From Lentisphaerae bacterium GWF2_57_35 (GTDB lineage Bacteria > Verrucomicrobiota > Kiritimatiellia > CAIQIC01 > GWF2-57-35): a DNA stretch of 64,000 nucleotides. The stretch spans positions 1 through 64,000 of the forward strand of contig MHBK01000019.1 in NCBI GenBank assembly GCA_001804865.1, written 5' to 3'. Shown here in pieces: positions 21,424-33,500 of the stretch; position 1 is the first letter of the stretch, and each line of letters starts with the position of its first letter. The notes below the pieces were generated by a model. That model saw nothing but the letters and a program-made list of their open reading frames with translations. It did no database searches and was not told where the DNA came from. Both the position numbers and the translations under genes were made by a program.

Positions 21424-21576
21424 ATGAGGCAGGAAAAGGAAATTAAAGAGGAGCAACCGGTCGAAAAGACTTCATATGAGGCTCCAAAGATGAAGAAACA
21501 CGATCCGGTAAAGATCGTCCAAGGCTCCGGAAGCTGCGGCGGGCTTTATTACACATCGCTGTATTATTCCTACTAA
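21424..21576 (+). CDS. RiPP precursor peptide with lasso-type YxxP leader and Tyr-rich C-terminus
   Basis: A 50-residue peptide with a strong ribosome-binding site (AGGAGG, 5 nt before ATG). The leader is charged (Lys/Glu-rich residues 3-15) and contains TSYEAPKM at 16-23, matching the Y-x-x-P motif that lasso-peptide leaders use to bind the RRE (B1). The C-terminal part reads GSGSCGG (34-40) then LYYTSLYYSY (41-50): five Tyr, three further Ser/Thr and one Cys nearby, an unusually modifiable tail. A terminator follows 13 nt after the stop, so the transcript is partly separate from the maturation genes. No other gene of this size in the window has such a motif. Core boundary and modifications are unknown; lasso topology is unlikely because no cyclase is present. 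Confidence 0.85.
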   Translation: MRQEKEIKEEQPVEKTSYEAPKMKKHDPVKIVQGSGSCGGLYYTSLYYSY

Positions 21577-21589
21577 TCTTTTGTGCGAA

Positions 21590-21632
21590 AACCTCGCGGG
21601 CTCATCCCATAGACCCGCGAGGTTTTTTTTTG
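21590..21632 (+). terminator. Terminator/attenuator after the precursor gene
   Basis: An 11-bp perfect stem aacctcgcggg/cccgcgaggtt around a 13-nt loop is followed by a run of nine T. It stands between the precursor and the biosynthetic genes, an arrangement that lets the precursor transcript exceed that of the enzymes. Confidence 0.95.
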
Positions 21633-21682: not shown

Positions 21683-22675
21683 TTGGGTCCTTGGATCTTT
21701 TGCATCGAGTCCAATTCCCAAGCCGTCCTGGAAAGCGTGGCGAGTCTGTTTGCCCATCGGGCATCGTATCGCGCACCGGAACAAGGCCGGGTTTTTACTT
21801 GTCGCGTGACGGACGATCCGGATGCTTTTTTCCATTTAGAAGCACAACTCCAAGGTTGCCCGGCTGTCGTGTCGGCCACCAAGGGGATATCGATTCGATA
21901 TGCTTACCAGAGCTCTCGGACGCTCATCGGCATGGATCACACGGCGATCATGCAGCTTGATGAAGGCCAGCCGGAACAAGCGAACGTGTTCCTGGATCCG
22001 ACGAATTACGCCCCCTATCTGGCTGGCGACGCCCAACGCAGAATTCGCGCCGATCCCGAAGCTTTTCTCTACCCGCTTCTGGCCGAATGGCTGCGCACCT
22101 GGGATGCCTGCCTGATCCATTGCGGCGCCGTGGTCGTGAATGGTCATACCGTCATGTTTTCCGGTCCGCCCGGCAGCGGGAAGTCGACCCAAGTTTTGCG
22201 CCTGCTGCTTCAGGGCGCTCATTTTTTGGCGGACGATCTGGCCATTTTACGGCGCTCGGAGCAAGGCTTGTGCATGCAACCGCTTCGCGAGGTGGCCAAT
22301 GTCAGCCCTATTTCCAAGCAGCATTTTCCCGAATTGGAGTTCCTGGATCGTTGTCCCGTTCGGGGCGACGGCAAGCGCATGGTCGACATCCATAGCATCC
22401 TGGGCCAATCGGCTGCGCAAGAAGCCCGACCCGGCGCCATACTTCGTATCCATCCGGACTCCGCTTCCTGGATCATTCCTTGTCCGGAGGAAGATCGCCT
22501 CACGGGCATCGAAAACATGGCGTGGTTTCGATCCGATCCCGCAAGAACGACCCGGCATTTCTGGCTGTTGATGGATTGGCTCTCGGCTTCGCGCCAGTGG
22601 CGCGTATCCCAGGGGTATCTGGCCTCTCATTTGTCGGAACTCATGCACCTGCTAAAACAGGAGTTTCCGGCATGA
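21683..22675 (+). CDS. HPr kinase-like protein A of the RiPP cluster
   Basis: A protein of about 330 residues. The HprK-type C-terminal kinase domain has Walker A GPPGSGKS (~161-168), then QGAHFLADDLAIL with the Asp pair seen in HPr kinase/phosphorylase. The N-terminal ~140 residues are family-specific. Relatives act as K proteins in lasso clusters (phosphorylating a Ser of the peptide) or in 'HPr-rel' systems with PqqD-like and nucleotidyltransferase partners. The frame opens with a TTG at 21683; a CTG at 21659 behind GGGGGA is also possible, so the start is uncertain. It overlaps kinase B by 4 nt. Substrate is presumably the Ser/Thr/Tyr-rich core (inference). Confidence 0.8.
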   Translation: MGPWIFCIESNSQAVLESVASLFAHRASYRAPEQGRVFTCRVTDDPDAFFHLEAQLQGCPAVVSATKGISIRYAYQSSRTLIGMDHTAIMQLDEGQPEQANVFLDPTNYAPYLAGDAQRRIRADPEAFLYPLLAEWLRTWDACLIHCGAVVVNGHTVMFSGPPGSGKSTQVLRLLLQGAHFLADDLAILRRSEQGLCMQPLREVANVSPISKQHFPELEFLDRCPVRGDGKRMVDIHSILGQSAAQEARPGAILRIHPDSASWIIPCPEEDRLTGIENMAWFRSDPARTTRHFWLLMDWLSASRQWRVSQGYLASHLSELMHLLKQEFPA

Positions 22676-23682
22676 GATCTTTTACCTCGCTGTTCGAACC
22701 GCTGGCCGCCCAAGCTTCCTGCCGGCACACCATCCCCATCATGAGCGCCCGGCTGAACCTGTTCTCTTCGGACGCGGAATTGCTGAACGATTTTGCACAC
22801 ACTTTTGTGGATTTGGATTTTACCGGTCATCAAGCCGGCTCGCAGAGCATGGAATGCGGCCTTGCGCCCCTGTCGGCCGCCTTGGATTGGAAAGACGCGC
22901 TGTCGGCCCGTCTGCAACGGGAGATCGATCATGAAGGCCTCGGACGACTCGTTCTTTATAAATGGCAGGAAGGCATCGGAGTCGAGCAGCGCGGGTTCGG
23001 CGTCGTGTTGGCGCATGCGTCCGGGCAATTTCTTTGCCTGGTCGAGAACCCGGCAGCCGCCCCCGCCGGCCGCATGCGGAATCTTTTCGGACTGGCCCAA
23101 CTCATCACGGCCGAAGCGCTGACCCGCCAACAACTCTTGTTTGTGCATGCCGGCGGTTGCGGGCTCAATGGGCGCTGCATCCTTCTGACCGGCCCCAGCG
23201 GCGCGGGAAAGACCACGCAAGCACTCCGCTTGATCCGAGAAGGCGCAACTTTTTACGGCGACGACCAGATCGTCGTGGGCCGAAATGCCGAAGGCCGATG
23301 GACCGCCTGGCCTTACTGGCGCAACATCGGCATTACCGCCTCGACGGCCCAGCTCCTCCCCTGGCTGCCGCAACCGGACAAAAACGGGGCCGGCAAAGAA
23401 AAATTCTTTTTTTCGGCCGGCGAGGAATTCCAATTCAAGAAGCCGGGTCCGGCCCGGATCGAGGCCATCGCATGGCTTTCTCCAACGGAGACAGAGCTTC
23501 GAAAGGTAGACCGCGAGGAGGCGCTGGCTTGCCTGGGCCAGCATTTTCTATCGGTCCCCTGGACGGCGGATGCCGGTCAAGTCTTGGGCGCGCTTTGCGA
23601 AATGGCGGAGAAAATCCCGGTTTACATCATGCCCCGAAACCAACTATCGGTCGCCGCCTGGAAACAAATCGCCCATGCATGA
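22672..23682 (+). CDS. HPr kinase-like protein B of the RiPP cluster
   Basis: A 336-residue paralogue of kinase A: Walker A GPSGAGKT (174-181) in ILLTGPSGAGKTTQALRL and EGATFYGDDQIVV (Asp-Asp at ~197-198). The N-terminal ~150 residues differ strongly from kinase A. ATG at 22672 overlaps the preceding stop (ATGA), and its own stop lies within the first codons of the radical SAM gene. Two tandem HprK-like proteins suggest two phosphorylation sites, a heteromeric kinase, or kinase plus phosphorylase. Confidence 0.8.
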   Translation: MRSFTSLFEPLAAQASCRHTIPIMSARLNLFSSDAELLNDFAHTFVDLDFTGHQAGSQSMECGLAPLSAALDWKDALSARLQREIDHEGLGRLVLYKWQEGIGVEQRGFGVVLAHASGQFLCLVENPAAAPAGRMRNLFGLAQLITAEALTRQQLLFVHAGGCGLNGRCILLTGPSGAGKTTQALRLIREGATFYGDDQIVVGRNAEGRWTAWPYWRNIGITASTAQLLPWLPQPDKNGAGKEKFFFSAGEEFQFKKPGPARIEAIAWLSPTETELRKVDREEALACLGQHFLSVPWTADAGQVLGALCEMAEKIPVYIMPRNQLSVAAWKQIAHA

Positions 23683-25063
23683 TCTTTCCTCCAACGAAAC
23701 GATCCGCCTGCTGTCCGCGGACGATCCGACCCAACAGCTCGGGCTGGCGTTGTTGGGCGATTCGCCGGAGCGTCATGCCGCTCAAATCCTGGAAGCCATG
23801 CTTCAAGCCAGCGCTCCGGCGCGCGATCGACTCGGCTTGTTCTGCCGGACGCGCTTTCCCTTTCTGGCGCCGCCCTGCAAAGCCGGACGTCTCATCGACG
23901 CGAATTCGTTCGTGGTCGGCGACGGCATGAAGCAACGCGAAAACCTCTTTTTGCATTCCGTGCGAGTCTGGCTGGAATCGCATCGCGAAAAGAATCCGTC
24001 TGTCTGTTTCGACCTGCTGAAGGAGCACACCGCCCTGGCGGCCGAATACGAACGAATAATTGAAGAACTCCTGGGCGCAACCGGCCTCGATGCCTGGCGG
24101 CCCTACGCAGCCAATGCCCAACCGGACCCCGTCCGGCAGTTGGGGTTTGCGCCGACGTACCGGTGCAACTTGTCTTGTCCCTACTGCATCAGCGCCTCCA
24201 TGCCGCGTGACGAGGCGGGCTGGGAGGATATCCGCCGCTTGATCCATTGGTGCCGGCAAAACGACGTCCGCCGGCTTCACTTGTTCGGCGGGGAGCCCAC
24301 TTTCCATCCAAATTTTACGGCCCTGCTACAGGAGGCCGAACAAGCCGGACTGGAAGTCTATTTTCCATCGAATTTGGTCATGTCCCCCGCCAACCTCGCC
24401 TTCATCCAACCCCCGGTGGTCCGCACGGTAACGGCGCACGTTCGGTCGCCGGATTCAACGCGCACCGGCGACACGTTCTGGCAGACGGCCGATACGCTGC
24501 AACAAAAGGGCGTTGCCGTGCGGGTGCGCTACAATTTAAAAAACGAGGACTGGTCGTTTCTGGTCGACGGCCTCAAACGGCTAAACAGCCGTAAGTTGAT
24601 TTTTGCCGGCATCGAATTCCCGGGCTGCGGGACACAGCGTTCCGAGGTGGAGTGGCTCGATCACGTCGCCTGCGCGCGCCGTTTTGTGGACTACATGCTG
24701 GAGCGAAACATCAAACCGGTGCTGGCCAAACCCCTGCCGCAATGCCTCGTGGAACAGGTCGGAGGCGCCATCCCCTGGGACGTTTTCCGGGGCCATTGCG
24801 AAGTTCATCAAAACCGGTACATGCGGAATGTTCATGTGCGCCCCGACTTCAAGATCGCCCTGTGCAATGGGGATATGAATCCGGCGAGACCCAGCCTGTG
24901 GCAATTCCCCGACTGGGCGGCCTTGCAGGACTACGTCGAACCCCGTCTGCGCGCATGGCAGAAACAACCGCTTTGGCCAAAATGCCGGTCCTGCTACTAT
25001 GAATTCCGCGGACTCTGCCAGGGCGCTTGCCTGATCGCAAAAGACCAGGAGCTGAAATCGTGA
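23675..25063 (+). CDS. Radical SAM/SPASM protein 1 with ~150-residue N-terminal extension
   Basis: A 462-residue protein. The SAM cluster motif CNLSCPYC is at Cys164/168/171, followed by the GGEP-type motif LHLFGGEPTFHP. The C-terminus has a SPASM/twitch-like Cys set (CKPL-region cysteines, CEVHQ, IALCNGD, CRSCYYEFRGLCQGAC) for auxiliary clusters. Residues 1-150 precede the barrel, contain CRTRFPFLAPPCKAGR, and match no family I know; they could be a leader-binding or partner domain. ATG at 23675 overlaps kinase B by 8 nt. Probably modifies the precursor core. Confidence 0.85.
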   Translation: MHDLSSNETIRLLSADDPTQQLGLALLGDSPERHAAQILEAMLQASAPARDRLGLFCRTRFPFLAPPCKAGRLIDANSFVVGDGMKQRENLFLHSVRVWLESHREKNPSVCFDLLKEHTALAAEYERIIEELLGATGLDAWRPYAANAQPDPVRQLGFAPTYRCNLSCPYCISASMPRDEAGWEDIRRLIHWCRQNDVRRLHLFGGEPTFHPNFTALLQEAEQAGLEVYFPSNLVMSPANLAFIQPPVVRTVTAHVRSPDSTRTGDTFWQTADTLQQKGVAVRVRYNLKNEDWSFLVDGLKRLNSRKLIFAGIEFPGCGTQRSEVEWLDHVACARRFVDYMLERNIKPVLAKPLPQCLVEQVGGAIPWDVFRGHCEVHQNRYMRNVHVRPDFKIALCNGDMNPARPSLWQFPDWAALQDYVEPRLRAWQKQPLWPKCRSCYYEFRGLCQGACLIAKDQELKS

Positions 25064-25557
25064 AAGCCGGCTTCCAACAAATCATGAGCCGTATCGATCG
25101 GCTGACGGCGCTGATCGAGCATAAAAACATCGAAGAAGCCGCCCAACTCGTGGACGAGCATCGAGCCGAATTGGCCTTGGATGACCCTCTTTATCCCTGG
25201 CTCAAAAGAGCCTGGCCTCTGCTTCGCTATTTACGACCTGAAACCCGGCGCCAGCCCTGCCTGTACCTTTGCCTGTTGTTCTTCGCGCGAGCCTGCCGCT
25301 TGCAGCAGGACGCACGGATTAACGTCTGCCTGTCCGCCCACCAGACGGAGATGAACAACGGGCATTGCTGGCTGACCATTGACGGAGAGACGATCCCTCT
25401 GTCGCCTTCCGACCGCGACCATTTCGGCGAATGCCTCGGCGGCAGCCAATGGATTCGCTATTGGGTGAGGTTTTCCCTTCGGAGCCGCAATCCGCACATT
25501 ATGGCCCGACTTAAACACATCACGCGCTTTTTGCACAAAGGAGCTTCTCATGGCTAA
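25060..25557 (+). CDS. Lasso B2-type (McjB/transglutaminase-like) leader peptidase
   Basis: A 165-residue protein. The segment from residue 66, PCLYLCLLFFARACRLQQDA, then INVCLSAH and GHCWLTIDGETIPLS, matches the McjB C-terminal (Transglut_core3) pattern: nucleophile Cys67, His102 and Asp108 as the presumed triad. In lasso clusters B2 cleaves the leader with the help of B1. The start is a GTG at 25060 overlapping the previous stop (GTGA), 9 nt after AGGAG. It overlaps the next radical SAM gene by 8 nt. B1 is a separate gene at 29371-29646, as in split-B lasso systems. B2 identity rests on motif pattern, not on a search. Confidence 0.75.
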   Translation: MKAGFQQIMSRIDRLTALIEHKNIEEAAQLVDEHRAELALDDPLYPWLKRAWPLLRYLRPETRRQPCLYLCLLFFARACRLQQDARINVCLSAHQTEMNNGHCWLTIDGETIPLSPSDRDHFGECLGGSQWIRYWVRFSLRSRNPHIMARLKHITRFLHKGASHG

Positions 25558-26527
25558 TATCATGTTAACGACCGCCTGTAATTTCCGATGCGATTACTGC
25601 TTCGGACGGCAGTTGATCGGCCCCGAACATCCGATTCAGATGATGGACCCGGACCTCTATCGCCGGTTGCTCGATTGGATCGATGCCGCCAATATGCCGA
25701 ACCTGGACGTCCACCTCATGGGCGGAGAGCCCACCCTGCATCCGAAATTCTCCGAATTAGCCGAGGAGCTGGTTCAACGGGGACGCAAGGCGGTTGTTTT
25801 CTCGAATTTGTCGGCGCCCTTGCCCAAAGAAGTGCTGGAACGTTGCGTGGAGAACGACGTGATGTGGGTAGTCAATGCCAACGCCCCCTCCTCTTACCTG
25901 CCCGTTCAATTGGAGCACTTGCATCGCAATCTGGCCGTAGTGGGCGACCAAGCGATGCTGACGTTCAACATCACGGGGCCCGACACGGATTTCGACTACA
26001 TCTTCGACCTGATCGCGCAGCACAAGCTTGCGCACAGCATTAAAATCGGCATCACGCTGCCCACCCTGGATCATCAAAATGCGCATGTGAAGCGGGAACA
26101 ATACCCCGGCGTGGCCAAGCGAGTCATGGAACTTCACGAGGAGGCCCTTCGTCAAAACGTCCGGATCGAATTCGAATGCGGCGTGGCCTACTGCGTATTT
26201 AGCCCCGCCCAGCGCGCGCTCTTGAAAGACATCCATATCAGCCATTGCGGATCGCGGCTGGACATCACGCCCTGGGGCGAAGTCATCAACTGCCTGCCGT
26301 TGTGTAAAGCCGCCAGCATAGCTTATGACCGGTTCGCGCATTATGGCGAAGCCGTGCACTGGTATCGCCGGGCGCTGCATCCCTATCGGGGCTTGGGCAA
26401 CTCTACGACCTGTCCCGACTGCGCTCACATGAAGGAAGGTCGTTGCGGAGTCTGTCTGGCGGACACGCTGTGGCAGATGGATCACATCGCCTGGCCGCCT
26501 CAACCGGCGGCGAACTCGATTTCATAA
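25550..26527 (+). CDS. Radical SAM/SPASM protein 2
   Basis: A 325-residue protein that begins almost directly with the cluster motif CNFRCDYC (Cys10/14/17), followed by HLMGGEPTLHPKF. The C-terminal half has FECGVAYCVFSP, SHCGSRLDITPWGEVINCLP and CPDCAHMKEGRCGVC, the Cys layout of two auxiliary clusters. Clearly paralogous to the protein at 28405-29358 (motif at the same residues) and to the Cys-less relative at 27563-28408. Start overlaps B2 by 8 nt; ends one base into the next start (TAATG). Inferred precursor-modifying enzyme. Confidence 0.88.
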   Translation: MANIMLTTACNFRCDYCFGRQLIGPEHPIQMMDPDLYRRLLDWIDAANMPNLDVHLMGGEPTLHPKFSELAEELVQRGRKAVVFSNLSAPLPKEVLERCVENDVMWVVNANAPSSYLPVQLEHLHRNLAVVGDQAMLTFNITGPDTDFDYIFDLIAQHKLAHSIKIGITLPTLDHQNAHVKREQYPGVAKRVMELHEEALRQNVRIEFECGVAYCVFSPAQRALLKDIHISHCGSRLDITPWGEVINCLPLCKAASIAYDRFAHYGEAVHWYRRALHPYRGLGNSTTCPDCAHMKEGRCGVCLADTLWQMDHIAWPPQPAANSIS

Positions 26528-27555
26528 TGGACGCAAACCCGATGCCGCGCTCCTTCAAAGAACACTGCCGACGACGACTGACCCGCTGGACGGGTCTGCC
26601 CTTCGGCCCACCCCGAACGCTGGCCATCGAGCCGACCAATCACTGCACCCGGAAATGCCCAGTCTGCGGCGCTCATTCCGGCCAGGCCATCCGCCCGCGC
26701 GGCTTCATGGATTGGAATCTTTTTCTGGCCCTCGCGGATCAAATCCAGGCCCTGAAGCCGGCGCGAGTTTCTTTGTATGGGCACGGAGAGCCGCTGTTGC
26801 ATCCGCGCTTGCCCGACATGACGCGGGAGCTGGCGCAACGGGGCTTGCACACTGAAATAGTAACTAACGGCGATCTACTGGATGCGGAGCTGCTGGCGCG
26901 ATGCTCGTCAGCCGGTCTCGGCAGCTTGATTGTCTCCCACCCCGGCATTACGCCGGCAAATTACAAAGCTTGCCGGGGCGAGCTGCAAAATACAGTCCAG
27001 GAAGATCGATTGCGATCGTTGATTCAAAGTGCGGCGCCTTCCTGCGACATTTACATCCGCAGTCTGGTTTTGCCGCAGCTGTTGAACGACGGCCCCGCCG
27101 AGTTGGCGTCGTTTGTCCGCGGCTGGCTCACGCTGCCAGGCATCCGCGGCGTGGGACTGCACGGATATCAACCCTGGCCGCGTCATGGCCTGGAGCAGCA
27201 CCTCGGGCAGCTCTTTACCCGAGCCCGCCGTTGCGAGTTGGGCATGGAAACCATGACCGTTCTCTGGAATGGAACCGTTACGCTGTGCTCTTACGATTCG
27301 GAAGGAGCCCTCGCGGTGGGACAGGCACCGGGCTTGTCCTTGCTGGATGCTTACCGCGGCGCCGAAGCCCGGCGGCGGCGCAAAGCATGGTTTGGCGCCT
27401 CGTCCAAATGGCCGGAACTGTGCCGCGATTGCCTGTTGCCCCGTTGCGCGGCGGTCTTCATTCCCCTGGGCCGCGAGATTCTTCGCTCGGAGACCTTGTT
27501 CGAACGCCAGGTTCGCAGTGCGTACGATCAACTGAACGCCGCGCATTCAGGATAG
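26527..27555 (+). CDS. Radical SAM/SPASM protein 3
   Basis: A 342-residue protein of a different subfamily from protein 2: CTRKCPVC at Cys40/44/47 within LAIEPTNHCTRKCPVCGAH, then VSLYGHGEPLLHP (GEP motif) and a C-terminal SPASM-like CSYDSEG...CRDCLLPRC. The IEPTNHC context recalls SPASM proteins acting on peptides or in cofactor assembly. ATG at 26527 overlaps the previous stop. It is the last plus-strand gene of this arm, ending 7 nt before the convergent minus-strand arm. Confidence 0.87.
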   Translation: MDANPMPRSFKEHCRRRLTRWTGLPFGPPRTLAIEPTNHCTRKCPVCGAHSGQAIRPRGFMDWNLFLALADQIQALKPARVSLYGHGEPLLHPRLPDMTRELAQRGLHTEIVTNGDLLDAELLARCSSAGLGSLIVSHPGITPANYKACRGELQNTVQEDRLRSLIQSAAPSCDIYIRSLVLPQLLNDGPAELASFVRGWLTLPGIRGVGLHGYQPWPRHGLEQHLGQLFTRARRCELGMETMTVLWNGTVTLCSYDSEGALAVGQAPGLSLLDAYRGAEARRRRKAWFGASSKWPELCRDCLLPRCAAVFIPLGREILRSETLFERQVRSAYDQLNAAHSG

Positions 27556-27562
27556 CGCGCCC

Positions 27563-28408
27563 TTATCGGCCAGCCTGCCACCCCGACATGGACTGCGCCA
27601 GGCAACCCACCCCGCAAGCCCCCGTGGCCAAACTCCGGCAATTCGTACCCCCAGCCCGCTCGCACCAACCCTGGAAAACCGCAGGCCAACCGGCCATCAC
27701 GTCCGCCCGGCTAACGGAAGCATCCAGATTCATGCCGCGGCCATCCATCGCCGGGCACAATCGCAAGGTTCCATCGGGCAAAACAGCGAGCTGAAGCTGA
27801 CAGCGCGCCGCCGGCCAACGAATGCGCGTGCCGGTCAATTGGGCAAGCTGCGGCCGGGAAAAAAGGCAGAGCGGCAACCCGCAGGCAAATTCCACATCCA
27901 GCCGCCGGGCGCTCAATTCAGCGGCCAGTTCCACCAACAATTTGCCCCACACGGAATACCGATCGGGAGAGATGATTCCCGGTCTTTCGAAACGGCTCGG
28001 CCACATCGCCCCCAGCACAACCCGCCGCGAGGGCTTTATCGCGTCCACCACTTTCAACCAAAGCGCAGGATCAGCGACGGGCTCCATCAAGGGCAAAAAC
28101 AAAACCGACGGCAAAACCGGATAACGAGGGGCTGCCGTTTCCATGCCGGCGGCATCAAGACCCCATTCGCTGCCATGAGCCTGAATGGTCTCGATATGCT
28201 CCATCGTAACATGCCGATCGAACCAGCCATGAACCCAATACGGAGGTTTCAAAATCGCCAGGGCGCCCCGAAGCTCGTTTACGTCCACTTCGCCGCGCAC
28301 ATAAAGATGAATTTCCGGGTCGCCGGATGTGAGGCTCCATTCGGCACAACGTTTCAGGCACTCGGCCGTCATGACCGACCGGCCATCGCCAAGCCAGATC
28401 GCGATCAT
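27563..28408 (-). CDS. Radical SAM-like pseudo-enzyme (CX3CX2C lost, SPASM-like C-terminus kept)
   Basis: A 281-residue paralogue of the radical SAM proteins at 25550 and 28405. The C-terminal block VEFACGLPLCLFSRPQL...RCQLQLAVLPDGTLRLCP...CRSLATGACGVGC aligns with theirs position by position. The N-terminus starts IAIWLGDGRSVMTAECL, with no cysteine cluster where CX3CX2C should be. It therefore cannot bind the SAM cluster but may keep an auxiliary cluster or bind peptide. ATG at 28408 overlaps the upstream gene's stop (ATGA), with intact frame and normal codons, so it is not a decaying pseudogene. Possibly a scaffold or partner. Confidence 0.75.
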   Translation of the reverse strand: MIAIWLGDGRSVMTAECLKRCAEWSLTSGDPEIHLYVRGEVDVNELRGALAILKPPYWVHGWFDRHVTMEHIETIQAHGSEWGLDAAGMETAAPRYPVLPSVLFLPLMEPVADPALWLKVVDAIKPSRRVVLGAMWPSRFERPGIISPDRYSVWGKLLVELAAELSARRLDVEFACGLPLCLFSRPQLAQLTGTRIRWPAARCQLQLAVLPDGTLRLCPAMDGRGMNLDASVSRADVMAGWPAVFQGWCERAGGTNCRSLATGACGVGCLAQSMSGWQAGR

Positions 28409-29358
28409 GAGTCGCCTCCCGCCCGGGCCAGCGTTCTGGACATGCACCCGCCCGAACAAACGCCGTCAGCGAAAGGACGGCATTGAACGCAACTCTTCAA
28501 ACTTCCGCGCGCTTGGGGCTCCTGCCAACGCTCCAGGAAATGCCGGGAGATTTCTTCCAGCGAGGAAAATTGCGTCAAGGTCACGCTGTGCGCGCCGGAA
28601 AACGGGAAACATCGCCACACCTTCAAGTCAGGTCCAATATCCAGGATCGGCTTGCATACGAACAACAATTCGGCGCCGCACTCCACCAAGGTCGCCAATT
28701 CGTCCGGCGTGAAGAGGCACCGTTGAAAACCGCAGTCAAAACCGATCACAATGCCGTCCTTCGCCAAATCCACGGCCATCTCCACCAAGCGGGCCGCGAC
28801 GGAGCGCAAATCGGCGTCCTTGAGGTATACGTTTTTCTCGCCCTGAATGGGTTGCGTGATGCCGATGCGAATGGATTTTCCCAGGCCGGTTTCCTGAATC
28901 GTCCGGCGCAGATAATCCCACTCGAATCCGGGCGTATAAATGTTGAACGAAAGCCGCGCCCGATCGCCGAAGGCCCGGCCGTTTGCCACGATTTCGGTCC
29001 ATTCCGTTTTCGTATATTGATCGGGCGGATTCAAATTAACGATGATCCGCAAGGCCGATGAAGGAGACAGGTCCACCACCTCCCTCAGGCGGGGATTCGT
29101 GCCGTTGGTGAAAATTTTTACGCTGTAGCGCCGATCCAAAGCCAGCTTCACCAGCTGGGCAAAATGCCGGTGCAGCGTAGGCTCGCCGCCCAACAACGCC
29201 ACCGAGTCGCGCCCCGGACGCAAATAGCCGAGGATGGTTTCATATTCCGCCAGACTCATTTCCCAGCGAGGCGTCGATGTGCCCAGGGCGACTTGTTCCT
29301 TGGCAAAGCAGTAAGGACAACTCCGATTGCAGTAATTGGTCAGGAGGATATTCGGCAT
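28405..29358 (-). CDS. Radical SAM/SPASM protein 4
   Basis: A 317-residue enzyme with CNRSCPYC at Cys10/14/17 (same positions as protein 2), SVALLGGEPTLHRHF, and C-terminal FDCGFQRCLFTP, CKPILDIGPDLKVWRC and CVQCRPFADGVCSGGC. It lies 12 nt downstream of the PqqD-like B1 gene; RRE-radical SAM adjacency is a hallmark of RiPP maturation. It overlaps the pseudo-enzyme gene by 4 nt, which suggests the two are made in equal amounts and may form a pair. Confidence 0.88.
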   Translation of the reverse strand: MPNILLTNYCNRSCPYCFAKEQVALGTSTPRWEMSLAEYETILGYLRPGRDSVALLGGEPTLHRHFAQLVKLALDRRYSVKIFTNGTNPRLREVVDLSPSSALRIIVNLNPPDQYTKTEWTEIVANGRAFGDRARLSFNIYTPGFEWDYLRRTIQETGLGKSIRIGITQPIQGEKNVYLKDADLRSVAARLVEMAVDLAKDGIVIGFDCGFQRCLFTPDELATLVECGAELLFVCKPILDIGPDLKVWRCFPFSGAHSVTLTQFSSLEEISRHFLERWQEPQARGSLKSCVQCRPFADGVCSGGCMSRTLARAGGDS

Positions 29359-29370
29359 TCGCCACGCTCT

Positions 29371-29646
29371 TCAGGAACCAGTCGATTCCGCCACGAGGTT
29401 TTCGCTTTTCCACTCGCCGATGAGGGCGAGGCAATCCTGCCGCACGGCCTCCGCTTCCGGCGCTTCTTTCACGGCATCGCGCAGAGCCATCACCGTCTCG
29501 TCCAGCGACTTCTTGCCGACCACATGATTTTTCCACAACAAAGAACCCGTGGCGTTCAAGGTGTAGTACTGGCCGTTGGCCGTATTAAGAACCACGCAAA
29601 TGTCCCCGGAATTCCGCCACACAATATGATCCCCTGTCGTCAACAT
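29371..29646 (-). CDS. PqqD-like RRE protein (lasso B1-type leader-binding protein)
   Basis: A 91-residue protein with the PqqD/RRE pattern: three beta strands around WRNSGDICVVLNTANGQYYTL, then NATGSLLWKNHVVGKKSLDETVMAL and a terminal helix. The RRE binds leader peptides; in lasso systems it recognises the YxxP motif, which the precursor at 21424 carries. A strong AAAGGAG precedes the ATG by about 6 nt. It follows the NTP_transf_5 gene (84-nt gap) and precedes radical SAM protein 4. Confidence 0.88.
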   Translation of the reverse strand: MLTTGDHIVWRNSGDICVVLNTANGQYYTLNATGSLLWKNHVVGKKSLDETVMALRDAVKEAPEAEAVRQDCLALIGEWKSENLVAESTGS

Positions 29647-29729: not shown

Positions 29730-30839
29730 TCATCCACCGCGCGCAATCACTTTACCGCTGAGCCCAGCCCGTCGCGCCGAGCGATACTCCCGCATAAATT
29801 TTGCCGAGAAGCACGGGAGAATGGCGGCGAGCTTGGACCACCACCCTTCCGCCTCGCTCACTTCAATCCGTTTCCACAACCTGAAAGCTTCCGGAGACTC
29901 CCCGGTGAAAAGTCCTCTGGCAGCCCAATAACGATTGACCAGCCGATCGAAACGGTCTTTCACACCCCAATCGACGCTTGCCCAGCTCAAAGGCATTTCC
30001 CAACCGACTTCCTGCAGGCCCCGCCATACGACCCAGGCCATGCGGCCCCATCCCCGTGATAAAAAGGCCGTTTGCACAGCCGAAGGGTCAGGCTGCCGAA
30101 CCGACCACCAGGCCGCCAGGTCGCGAAGCCAGAGGTAACGCGCATACTCATGATGCCTCGCATGCAAAACCAACATCAGCAGATCGTCAACGGGTTCCAA
30201 TTGTAACAACGGCGCATGTCGCGGAGAGGGTTGAGCCCTATCCATTAAGGCCTCCGTGCTCAACAAGCCCCAGTGCCGTCGGCGTTCCGCTGCGCAAAAA
30301 TGGACCTCAATAAGCGCATCGCCCCGACGATAAATCCGCTGGCGCCTGCGGCGTTCTTCTTCAAACCGATGCCCTAAAAACCAGGAGGAAACGGCATCGA
30401 TATCGTTTTCGGAAACGAGCAGATCGATATCGCGAACTTCCCGGCAACGATAATCGCCGAAGACTTCCAAGAGGTAATTCGGGGATTTCATCAGCACGAC
30501 CCGGCAGCCGATTTCACGAGCCAACGTTCCTACTTCGCAAAGGCCTTCGTTCACGATGGCCCCACGTCGCGCGGCGGTCTCTCCGGCAATCCAGAGCAGC
30601 TCTCGGGCCGCTTCCGGCAAAGCCGAGAAGCCGGCCCAGGGCGTTTGGAAGCCCGCCAGCACCCGATGATACTGCCCCATCCACAGCAGATAGCCCCAAT
30701 CCAGCTGTTCCATGTCCCAGACGGATTCCATGCATCGATTGCGCCAGCTTGCCTCCAGGGAAGAAAACCAGAATTGCCGGGAATACGGGTCGGCCCGCTT
30801 GGGACAGACCAATTCAAATTCGTTCATTTGCTTTGCCAT
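29730..30839 (-). CDS. NTP_transf_5-type nucleotidyltransferase
   Basis: A 369-residue protein with the hallmark of the 'uncharacterised nucleotidyltransferase' family: VVLMKSPNYLLEVFGDY then REVRDIDLLVSENDIDAV (metal-binding D-I-D) and later DALIEVHF. Such proteins accompany HprK-like kinases in lasso and HPr-rel clusters; in the pseudomycoidin lasso system the homologue is implicated in elaborating the phosphorylated residue. ATG at 30839 or 30827; neither has a clear ribosome-binding site. It is divergent from the kinase gene at 30907 across a 67-nt shared promoter region. Confidence 0.82.
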   Translation of the reverse strand: MAKQMNEFELVCPKRADPYSRQFWFSSLEASWRNRCMESVWDMEQLDWGYLLWMGQYHRVLAGFQTPWAGFSALPEAARELLWIAGETAARRGAIVNEGLCEVGTLAREIGCRVVLMKSPNYLLEVFGDYRCREVRDIDLLVSENDIDAVSSWFLGHRFEEERRRRQRIYRRGDALIEVHFCAAERRRHWGLLSTEALMDRAQPSPRHAPLLQLEPVDDLLMLVLHARHHEYARYLWLRDLAAWWSVRQPDPSAVQTAFLSRGWGRMAWVVWRGLQEVGWEMPLSWASVDWGVKDRFDRLVNRYWAARGLFTGESPEAFRLWKRIEVSEAEGWWSKLAAILPCFSAKFMREYRSARRAGLSGKVIARGG

Positions 30840-30906
30840 AGTTTGGGACCGTCGTATACTGAAATCCACGTATAACACGTCCGCCGCACGGGCGTCAAAA
30901 CTGCAC

Positions 30907-31728
30907 ATGAATCCATTAAAGAAAACCGATCGTTCGCTGCCCCCGGGATACAGGGCTGAAGGGATGCGGCATGAAAGCCCGGCTTACGTCGTGTACCAAG
31001 CGCTGCACCTGGCCACCGGCCGGATGTGCGCTATTAAAACCACGCGAAAAGCGCCCACCCCGGACGCCACAACGGCCTTGGAACATGAATTTGACGCGCT
31101 ACGGCGTTTGTCGGGATCGTTCGCGCCCAAAGCGTACGAGTTGCTTCGTCCGGAGAAGCTGTTCCTCGTGCTGGAGTGGATCGACGGCGCCGACCTGGAA
31201 AGCATCATTCGAAGCAAGCCGCCGCTTCCACGCGCCATCGCACTGGCAAGCATGATCCTGAAGGCCGTTGACGATTTGCATGCCTCGGGTTTTTTGCACT
31301 TGGATCTGAAGCCGGCCAATATTCTGATCCGCCCAACGGGCGCCGCCGCCTTGATCGATTTTGCCCTCGCCCAACCCATCGGGCCGCCTGTCGCCCCGCC
31401 CGAGCAGCCGTTTCTTTTGCAAGGGACTTTATCCTATATGGCGCCGGAGCAAACCGGCTGGCTCGATGCACCGATCGATCGACGCGCGGATTATTATGCG
31501 CTGGGAGTCATTTTTTATGAATTGTTCGTCGGCGCGACGCCGTTTGCCGCCCAGACATTTCAGGAACTGCTGGATCATGTGCTTCACTCCGTTCCGGCAG
31601 AACCCATCGACCTACCGCTGCCGCTAAACCAGCTCATCATGCAATTGCTGGCCAAGCATCCGGATCAGCGGCCCGGCGAATTGGGCAAAGCCGCCGCGGT
31701 CGTTTCCTCGTCGGCAGAGATTTGCTGA
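30907..31728 (+). CDS. Ser/Thr protein kinase-like protein
   Basis: A 273-residue Hanks-type kinase domain without membrane or sensor domains. Present: the N-lobe lysine in CAIKTTRK (Lys44), catalytic loop HLDLKPANIL (His131, Asp133, Asn138) and YMAPEQTGWLD (APE). Atypical: no GxGxxG loop (RAEGMRHESPAYVVY instead), and DFG replaced by DFA (Asp151-Ala153). The Asp is retained, so activity is possible. The stop region overlaps the 3' end of the convergent ABC gene by 64 nt. Could regulate the cluster or phosphorylate the peptide; neither is shown. Confidence 0.85.
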   Translation: MNPLKKTDRSLPPGYRAEGMRHESPAYVVYQALHLATGRMCAIKTTRKAPTPDATTALEHEFDALRRLSGSFAPKAYELLRPEKLFLVLEWIDGADLESIIRSKPPLPRAIALASMILKAVDDLHASGFLHLDLKPANILIRPTGAAALIDFALAQPIGPPVAPPEQPFLLQGTLSYMAPEQTGWLDAPIDRRADYYALGVIFYELFVGATPFAAQTFQELLDHVLHSVPAEPIDLPLPLNQLIMQLLAKHPDQRPGELGKAAAVVSSSAEIC

Positions 31729-33500
31729 ACCATGCACATATACTTGAAGATCGGCGACGAAACGAGCAGGTCCTGAGGCCGCCCCACGGCTTCCACGCGG
31801 TTTTGATTGAGCACGACCACCCGATCCGATCGCATGGCCAGACTCATGCGATGCGTGACGATCAGCGTGATGCGCTCCGGCGCCGCTGAACCGATCAACC
31901 GAAAAACCTGTTCCTCCGACTGGGCATCCAAGGCCGAAGTCGGTTCGTCGAGCAACAACACATCCGGCCGCGCCAGCAACGCGCGCAACAAGGCGATTCG
32001 CTGGGCTTCGCCGCCCGACCAGTCCGTCCCGCTTTCGGCCATCCGGGCCTCCAAGCCGCCCCGGCGAGCCGTCACTTCGCCCAGCCCCAGCGTCGCCAGC
32101 CCCGAGAGCAGCTCTTCCTCGCACACGTCAGGGGCTCGAATCAGCAGATTCTCCCGGATCGTCCCTCGAAAGAGTTCCGGAGATTGGAAAACCACGCCAA
32201 TTCGGCGTCGCCAATCGCCCAAGGCCAGCGTATCCAAGGAACGTCCGTTCACAAGCACTTGCCCTTGATCCGGCTGAATGAAGCCCAGTATCAAATCCAA
32301 GAGCGTGGATTTTCCTACTCCGCTCAAGCCCACCATGCTCACTACCTCGCCGCGCCTCACGGCCAAGTCAATCTGTTCCAAGCCGCCCCCATCCGCTCCA
32401 TACGCAAAACTCACGTTGGAAAAGGCCAGCTCGTGAACAGGGCCGGGCATGGGCGCCGCATCCGGTTTTTCGATGGCCTCGGGAGGTTCATCCATGAGCT
32501 TCAGATAACGAGAGCCCGCCGCGCGAAAATCCTGCACCGAAGCCACGGCCAGGGCCGCCTTGCGCAATTCCTGTCCGATAAGCAGAATCCCGACGAGAAT
32601 GGACACCAAGGCGCCCACGGACAATTCGCCGCGGCGCACCCAATCCACGCCGGTAAAGGCGACGGCCAGAAAGCAGAGCAATAGGACGATCGCCGCCACA
32701 TGCCGCGCCGCCAGGGCCATCAACAAGCCGCTGCGCGCCAGCCGCAGATGATCCTTCACCCAGGCGCGAAGCACGCCGGCCTGCCGTTCCTCCAGGCAGA
32801 ACGCCTTGACGGTCCGCGCATGAAAAAACGATTCCGCCAATCGGCCCGTCAAACTGCTCATCTGATCCAGCTTATCCGCGCTGATGCGCATGAGCCGCCG
32901 GCGGAGCAGCAAAGCCGGCAATCCGGCGGCCAGCAGCGAGACAACGATCACGGCCGCGTAGCCCCGCGAAAGCCAAAGGATGGACGACAGATAAACCAGC
33001 AGAGTAATCGGGGCCGCCAGCAACAGCCGGGGCAACGTCAGTATCCCCTGTTGAACGGCCCTCACATCGTGATCGCAACGGGAAACCCATTCGCCGACCG
33101 GCACGCTCTCGAGCCGGCGCAGCGGCAGCCGCAGCACATGAAGATAGACCGCCTCGCGCAAGGTCTCGCGAATTCGCAGCGATTCGCCCAACTCCAGATT
33201 GGAACTGAGAAAAAACACGATTTCGACGGCCAGCAAGAGTCCCGCGCTGCACGCAAACAACCACCCCGCATCGTACCCCAGCGAGCCGCCCTCCCATTCC
33301 ACCAGCCGTCGCAAGAGAGGCAACAGGGCCGCCAACATCGCCGCCGCCAAGCTTTGAAGGCCAATCAAGGCAAGCAGCTTCCACCACGAGCACCGGGCCA
33401 GACGGCTGATGCGGAAAAAATCGTCCCGGGAAAAATCCGAAGGAGCGCCGCGGCGACGGGGATTCGCCAAAGCCAAAGGAGTCTCCCTGTTGTGCTTCAT
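31665..33500 (-). CDS. ABC exporter (lasso D-like), fused membrane and ATPase domains
   Basis: A 611-residue half-transporter: transmembrane helices between ~40 and 310, then an ATPase with Walker A GLSGVGKST (391-399), Q-loop VVFQSPELF, signature WSGGEAQ (494-500), Walker B VLLLDEPTS (~514-522) and H-loop His550. There is no N-terminal C39 peptidase domain, so leader removal must be done elsewhere, consistent with B2. Alone in its orientation next to the kinase; proposed to export the mature peptide. An MsbA-like lipid exporter is the alternative. Confidence 0.88.
   Translation of the reverse strand: MKHNRETPLALANPRRRGAPSDFSRDDFFRISRLARCSWWKLLALIGLQSLAAAMLAALLPLLRRLVEWEGGSLGYDAGWLFACSAGLLLAVEIVFFLSSNLELGESLRIRETLREAVYLHVLRLPLRRLESVPVGEWVSRCDHDVRAVQQGILTLPRLLLAAPITLLVYLSSILWLSRGYAAVIVVSLLAAGLPALLLRRRLMRISADKLDQMSSLTGRLAESFFHARTVKAFCLEERQAGVLRAWVKDHLRLARSGLLMALAARHVAAIVLLLCFLAVAFTGVDWVRRGELSVGALVSILVGILLIGQELRKAALAVASVQDFRAAGSRYLKLMDEPPEAIEKPDAAPMPGPVHELAFSNVSFAYGADGGGLEQIDLAVRRGEVVSMVGLSGVGKSTLLDLILGFIQPDQGQVLVNGRSLDTLALGDWRRRIGVVFQSPELFRGTIRENLLIRAPDVCEEELLSGLATLGLGEVTARRGGLEARMAESGTDWSGGEAQRIALLRALLARPDVLLLDEPTSALDAQSEEQVFRLIGSAAPERITLIVTHRMSLAMRSDRVVVLNQNRVEAVGRPQDLLVSSPIFKYMCMVQQISADEETTAAALPNSPGR

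Follow-up and report, generated by a model that had tools for sequence, protein, structure and literature searches.

The closest described counterparts of the locus reported here are the clusters for phosphorylated lasso peptides exemplified by bsf, paeninodin and pseudomycoidin (A, B1, B2, C, K, N, D), with which it shares a discrete B1, a separate B2, an HprK-like kinase, a nucleotidyltransferase and an ABC exporter. In the lasso precursor BsfA, the stretch from −17 to −12 was assigned to a YxxPxL motif; cleavage by B2 is aided by B1, which also assists the kinase in phosphorylating Ser3 (PMC10368454). Transglutaminase-like leader peptidases were given in a review for lasso peptides only (PMC10885120). 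With RRE-Finder, about 300 lasso-like discrete RiPP recognition elements (RREs) were found beside radical SAM genes, accompanied by neither a leader peptidase nor a cyclase, and these B1-like proteins were counted as false positives of the lasso model (PMC7470986). Kinase, PqqD and radical SAM genes are also combined in the SynChlorMet cassette (HprK-like ScmC, PqqD-like ScmD and the radical SAM proteins ScmE/F), while in the GG system of Bacteroidales a radical SAM relative devoid of CxxxCxxC, the pseudo-rSAM TIGR04150, is found beside true radical SAM enzymes.

The locus analyzed here lies within a stretch of 64,000 nt from a member of Verrucomicrobiota, hereafter the window, and differs from each of these systems. 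Unlike bsf-type lasso clusters, it has no asparagine-synthetase cyclase C and contains four radical SAM enzymes, and the Tyr-rich core of its precursor type, almost always devoid of a ring-forming Asp/Glu, is preceded by Gln in place of Thr(−2). In contrast to the neighbourhoods of the B1-like proteins recorded by RRE-Finder, it includes a B2 peptidase homologue. Its weak matches to the NCBIfam models of SynChlorMet fall far under cut-off and the precursor fits no NCBIfam model; the pseudo-radical-SAM protein, unlike TIGR04150, has no NCBIfam match. Within the literature searched, from which subscription papers were largely absent, neither the LYY repeat nor a radical SAM cluster that includes a B2 was mentioned, and the union of a lasso-type leader-removal set with radical SAM enzymes would represent a kind of natural-product pathway not described so far.

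We regard it as quite probable that this is a RiPP cluster in which the parts that handle the leader and tailor the peptide are those of phosphorylated lasso systems, radical SAM enzymes replace the cyclase, and B2 cuts the leader. From sequence, we infer how the leader is bound, where it is cleaved, what the kinases act on and in which order the steps proceed: the PqqD-type B1 would bind the leader motif YxxPx(T/M) at −17 to −12 and hand the precursor, 50 aa long, to the radical SAM enzymes for alteration of its Tyr-rich core, and likewise to the HprK-like kinases; the small Cys-His protein B2 would then cleave at VQG|S, and the ABC transporter would export the product. If this is true, the B1/B2 pair, together with kinase and nucleotidyltransferase, would constitute a module compatible with an entirely different core chemistry.

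Gene content of the two converging arms

The plus-strand arm starts with the gene for the 50-aa precursor peptide (21424..21576, +), with AGGAGG just 5' of its ATG, a leader ending in YEAPKMKKHDPVKIVQG and the core SGSCGGLYYTSLYYSY; the leader motif and its spacing are shared with the precursors of 14 other loci. Directly 3' of this gene, we found an intrinsic-terminator-like hairpin with a T run (21588..21632, +; fold −27.3 kcal/mol, z=−5.5), and downstream of it the genes, both with approximate starts, for HprK-like kinase A (21683..22675, +; TIGR04352, E=5.7e-9, under cut-off; Walker A GPPGSGKS and DD) and HprK-like kinase B (22735..23682, +; TIGR04355, E=1.6e-9, under cut-off; Walker A GPSGAGKT). 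These are followed by radical SAM enzyme 1, with an N-terminal extension and SPASM-like C-terminal cysteines (23675..25063, +; PF04055, E=8e-10; CNLSCPYC), the B2-like transglutaminase-like peptidase (25060..25557, +), radical SAM enzyme 2, with SPASM-like cysteines (25550..26527, +; PF04055, E=3.8e-12; 31% identity to radical SAM enzyme 4), and radical SAM/SPASM enzyme 3 (26524..27555, +; PF04055 and PF13186, both above cut-off).

The minus-strand arm comprises an ABC exporter (31665..33500, −; PF00664 and PF00005), a PF14907 nucleotidyltransferase-like protein of the lasso 'N' type (29730..30908, −; E=5e-23), which is present in relatives too, B1 (29371..29646, −), radical SAM enzyme 4, with SPASM-like cysteines (28405..29358, −; PF04055, E=3.5e-14), and a pseudo-radical-SAM protein (27563..28408, −). 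The last of these is a relative of enzymes 2 and 4 (BLASTP E=8e-9 to enzyme 2) which lacks CxxxCxxC and retains several auxiliary-cluster cysteines; a relative, also devoid of CxxxCxxC, adjoins radical SAM enzyme 4 in a Spirochaetes locus (L061). Radical SAM maturase features, i.e., PF04055, CxxxCxxC and auxiliary-cluster cysteines, are present in four genes of the window. No NCBIfam maturase model scored above cut-off for the radical SAM proteins, and neither these nor the precursor or B2 are covered by an NCBIfam model at cut-off. A protein kinase ORF (30712..31728, +; PF00069, E=4.4e-34), with a start probably near 30910, lies on the opposite strand between nucleotidyltransferase and transporter, and its membership of the cluster is uncertain; a kinase-like gene was also observed near B2 in locus L101.

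B1 is a small, discrete RRE of the PqqD type, which matches PF05402 above cut-off (E=1.5e-10) and whose best NCBIfam models, under cut-off, are lasso PqqD chaperones. The first-pass annotation had described split B1 and B2 proteins on opposite arms of a non-lasso cluster, each embedded between radical SAM genes. Both ORFs are present where it had placed them, and B2 does have a radical SAM gene at either end; B1 has radical SAM gene 4 on one side only and the nucleotidyltransferase gene on the other. Family profiles, Cys/His conservation, neighbourhoods in several phyla and the YxxP geometry of the leader all argue for its central claim of a lasso-type B1/B2 pair in a radical SAM cluster. The precursor, the lasso-type set of kinase, nucleotidyltransferase and transporter, and the wider cluster family were missing from that annotation.

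The precursor family and its predicted cut site

All 15 precursors compared, which derive from the window, the Spirochaetes locus and 13 Bacteroidales loci (L081 included), display the pattern Y(−17)xxP(−14)...H(−9)...V(−3)Q(−2)G(−1)S(+1) with fixed spacing. Their cores are 15–32 residues long, are largely built from repeats of Tyr, Leu, Thr and Ser (e.g., LYYTSLYY) and differ at the C-terminus, where Y, H, K, R or T is found. LYY was counted 39 times in 14 cores, compared with 8.3 times expected from shuffled cores. In an Acidobacteriaceae locus (L069), B2, a B1-like protein and HprK occur with a precursor that has VVGS at the same spacing, and in a second Verrucomicrobiota genome (L047), B2 adjoins a peptide ending in TYYYYTYTYYYVS.

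Counted from the predicted VQG|S cut, the Tyr of the YxxP motif falls at −17 in the 15 precursors, which is the lasso spacing. The main reason for predicting a B1-guided cut by B2 at VQG|S is that this position of YxxP is the same as in BsfA. Since a C39 peptidase domain was found neither in the exporter of the window nor in the other ABC proteins scanned, B2 is the sole recognised protease of the cluster. Lasso leaders usually carry Thr(−2), and Gln is found there in the precursors of this cluster type. The family offers both a predicted cut site and a very simple Y/L/T/S repeat core, which would allow direct tests of peptidase specificity (Thr or Gln at −2) as well as of radical SAM chemistry.

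Identity of the B2-like protein and alternative readings

B2 starts with GTG at 25060, with AGGAG upstream, and is coupled to the stop of the preceding radical SAM gene; its ORF overlaps the following radical SAM gene by 8 nt. The window protein matches PF13471 with E=0.0056, which is under the curated cut-off, whereas some relatives in similar neighbourhoods exceed it (L064, L069, L101 and L047). We ran a profile of 12 cluster-type B2s, of which the five members scanned against Pfam were all under the PF13471 cut-off, over 9,445 ORFs. Once the profile members themselves and two additional B2s from Bacteroidales were set aside, the top matches were mostly proteins that do pass PF13471, and a chance match was rejected on this basis. 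Profile–profile comparison of this family with lasso B2s was weak (probability 48% with bridging sequences and 4% without them); despite these scores, the assignment of the cluster B2, at the level of sequence families, to the lasso B2/PF13471 family stands. In a B2 tree with long branches and a small lasso sample, which does not give the direction of descent, lasso B2s and radical-SAM-type B2s were split by a well supported branch (98/96). A homologue search with B2 alone retrieved no close relatives from 387 genomes of the phylum or from a wider genome-contig set, no second B2 relative was found within its own genome, and a PDB sequence search returned nothing meaningful for B2, so that no relative with a solved structure was recognised, and nothing for B1.

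All 18 aligned B2s share Cys67, His102 and Trp104, and the motif is also kept in three more (21/21). The Cys–His spacing is 33–39 in cluster B2s and 34–37 in lasso B2s. Thus, two residues of the catalytic triad proposed in the first-pass annotation, Cys67 and His102, hold across the family and the third, Asp108, does not: its position is occupied by D in only eight of the 21 sequences, by N in eight, G in three, and K and T in one each, and so offers no conserved third catalytic acid. This lack of a conserved third residue, along with the shortness of many Bacteroidales B2s (only 88–121 aa), could indicate a catalytically dead protein whose only role would be to dock with B1 and the radical SAM enzymes, with a housekeeping protease removing the leader. 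We consider this unlikely, given that Cys, His and Trp are kept without exception from phylum to phylum, at a lasso-like spacing and a mean column identity of about 22%. A B2 that retains activity might alternatively be a transpeptidase of transglutaminase fold and not a hydrolase, which would ligate or cyclise the core, e.g., head to tail via Ser1. The transglutaminase fold is capable of acyl transfer, Ser(+1) is invariant in the 15 precursors and the lasso cyclase is missing. However, the core C-termini vary, unlike those of known head-to-tail substrates, and some protease would still have to remove the leader, none besides B2 being recognised; this role is therefore very improbable in our view.

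The missing cyclase also bears on whether the locus belongs to, or descends from, a lasso cluster. No ORF with SGGxDS was found in the 64-kb window and the PF00733 matches of the genome are all on other contigs, which upholds the non-lasso character first attributed to the cluster; near the 13 full-cluster loci described below, such an ORF was present only in L085, outside the cluster. A ring-forming Asp/Glu at core position 7–9 was likewise absent, as the cores contain no Asp/Glu save one Glu in one core. Membership of a lasso cluster was rejected on these two grounds. A degenerate lasso cluster, in which the cyclase was lost and B1 and B2 persist as relics next to an unrelated radical SAM island, would account for the complete kinase/nucleotidyltransferase set of phosphorylated lasso clusters, and a real lasso cluster does lie beside a gene of the radical SAM 4 family in locus L099. 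Nevertheless, both Spirochaetes and Bacteroidales have the cyclase-free gene set, with its genes intact and its precursors all of a single conserved family, so that degeneration, already disfavoured by this conservation, is in our judgement extremely unlikely.

Relatives and distribution of the cluster

A search with the radical SAM 2/4 family yielded 79 named loci, in 13 of which (12 from Bacteroidales and one from a Spirochaetes MAG) a B2-like gene was accompanied by B1, radical SAM enzymes, HprK and a precursor; one more Bacteroidales contig with a precursor begins too late to show B2. In each of the 13 full-cluster genomes, the B2 profile had a single match, which was located at the cluster. 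By gene order, the closest relative of the window is the Spirochaetes MAG locus L061, which shares the two-arm layout and whose proteins are 48% (radical SAM 4) and 38% (HprK A) identical to those of the window. On balance, we favour the view that these loci represent an undescribed RiPP class whose range takes in Verrucomicrobiota, Spirochaetota and Bacteroidota at least. In it, a minimal, RRE-guided B2 of lasso type acting at VQG|S would mature Tyr-repeat peptides; these would be crosslinked by a pair of paralogous radical SAM/SPASM enzymes, in some cases with the help of a pseudo-rSAM protein, and phosphorylated by HprK-like kinases.

Several of the clusters belong to MAGs of gut Bacteroidales, including those of ruminants. 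Among 374 genomes sampled from the order of genome G407, only three had a B2 match, so the cluster type is rare, if widely spread. Two of these matches correspond to cluster loci; the third, L158 (4711-7585), combines B1, B2, a PF14907 nucleotidyltransferase and HprK, with neither radical SAM nor cyclase genes on its short contig. In the order of the window, a relative of radical SAM enzyme 4 was detected in only one of 27 other genomes, with 33% identity, and this sparse occurrence suggests that the cluster may have been acquired by horizontal transfer.

Within Verrucomicrobiota, two loci with clusters of PqqD and radical SAM 4-family genes (L010 and L046) had no detectable B2. In the Verrucomicrobia MAG that carries L047 (9236-10534), B2 and the Tyr-rich peptide are followed by the contig end, and another contig of the same genome, L045 (1-4745), begins inside an HprK-like gene which is followed by a radical SAM 4 relative; the two are perhaps one broken cluster. 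Finally, in L099 (6948-10960), from a Syntrophobacterales MAG, genes for a fused PqqD-B2 protein, a PF00733 cyclase, a short peptide and a radical SAM 4-family protein stand in a row, a possible lasso/radical-SAM hybrid and evolutionary link between the two cluster types.
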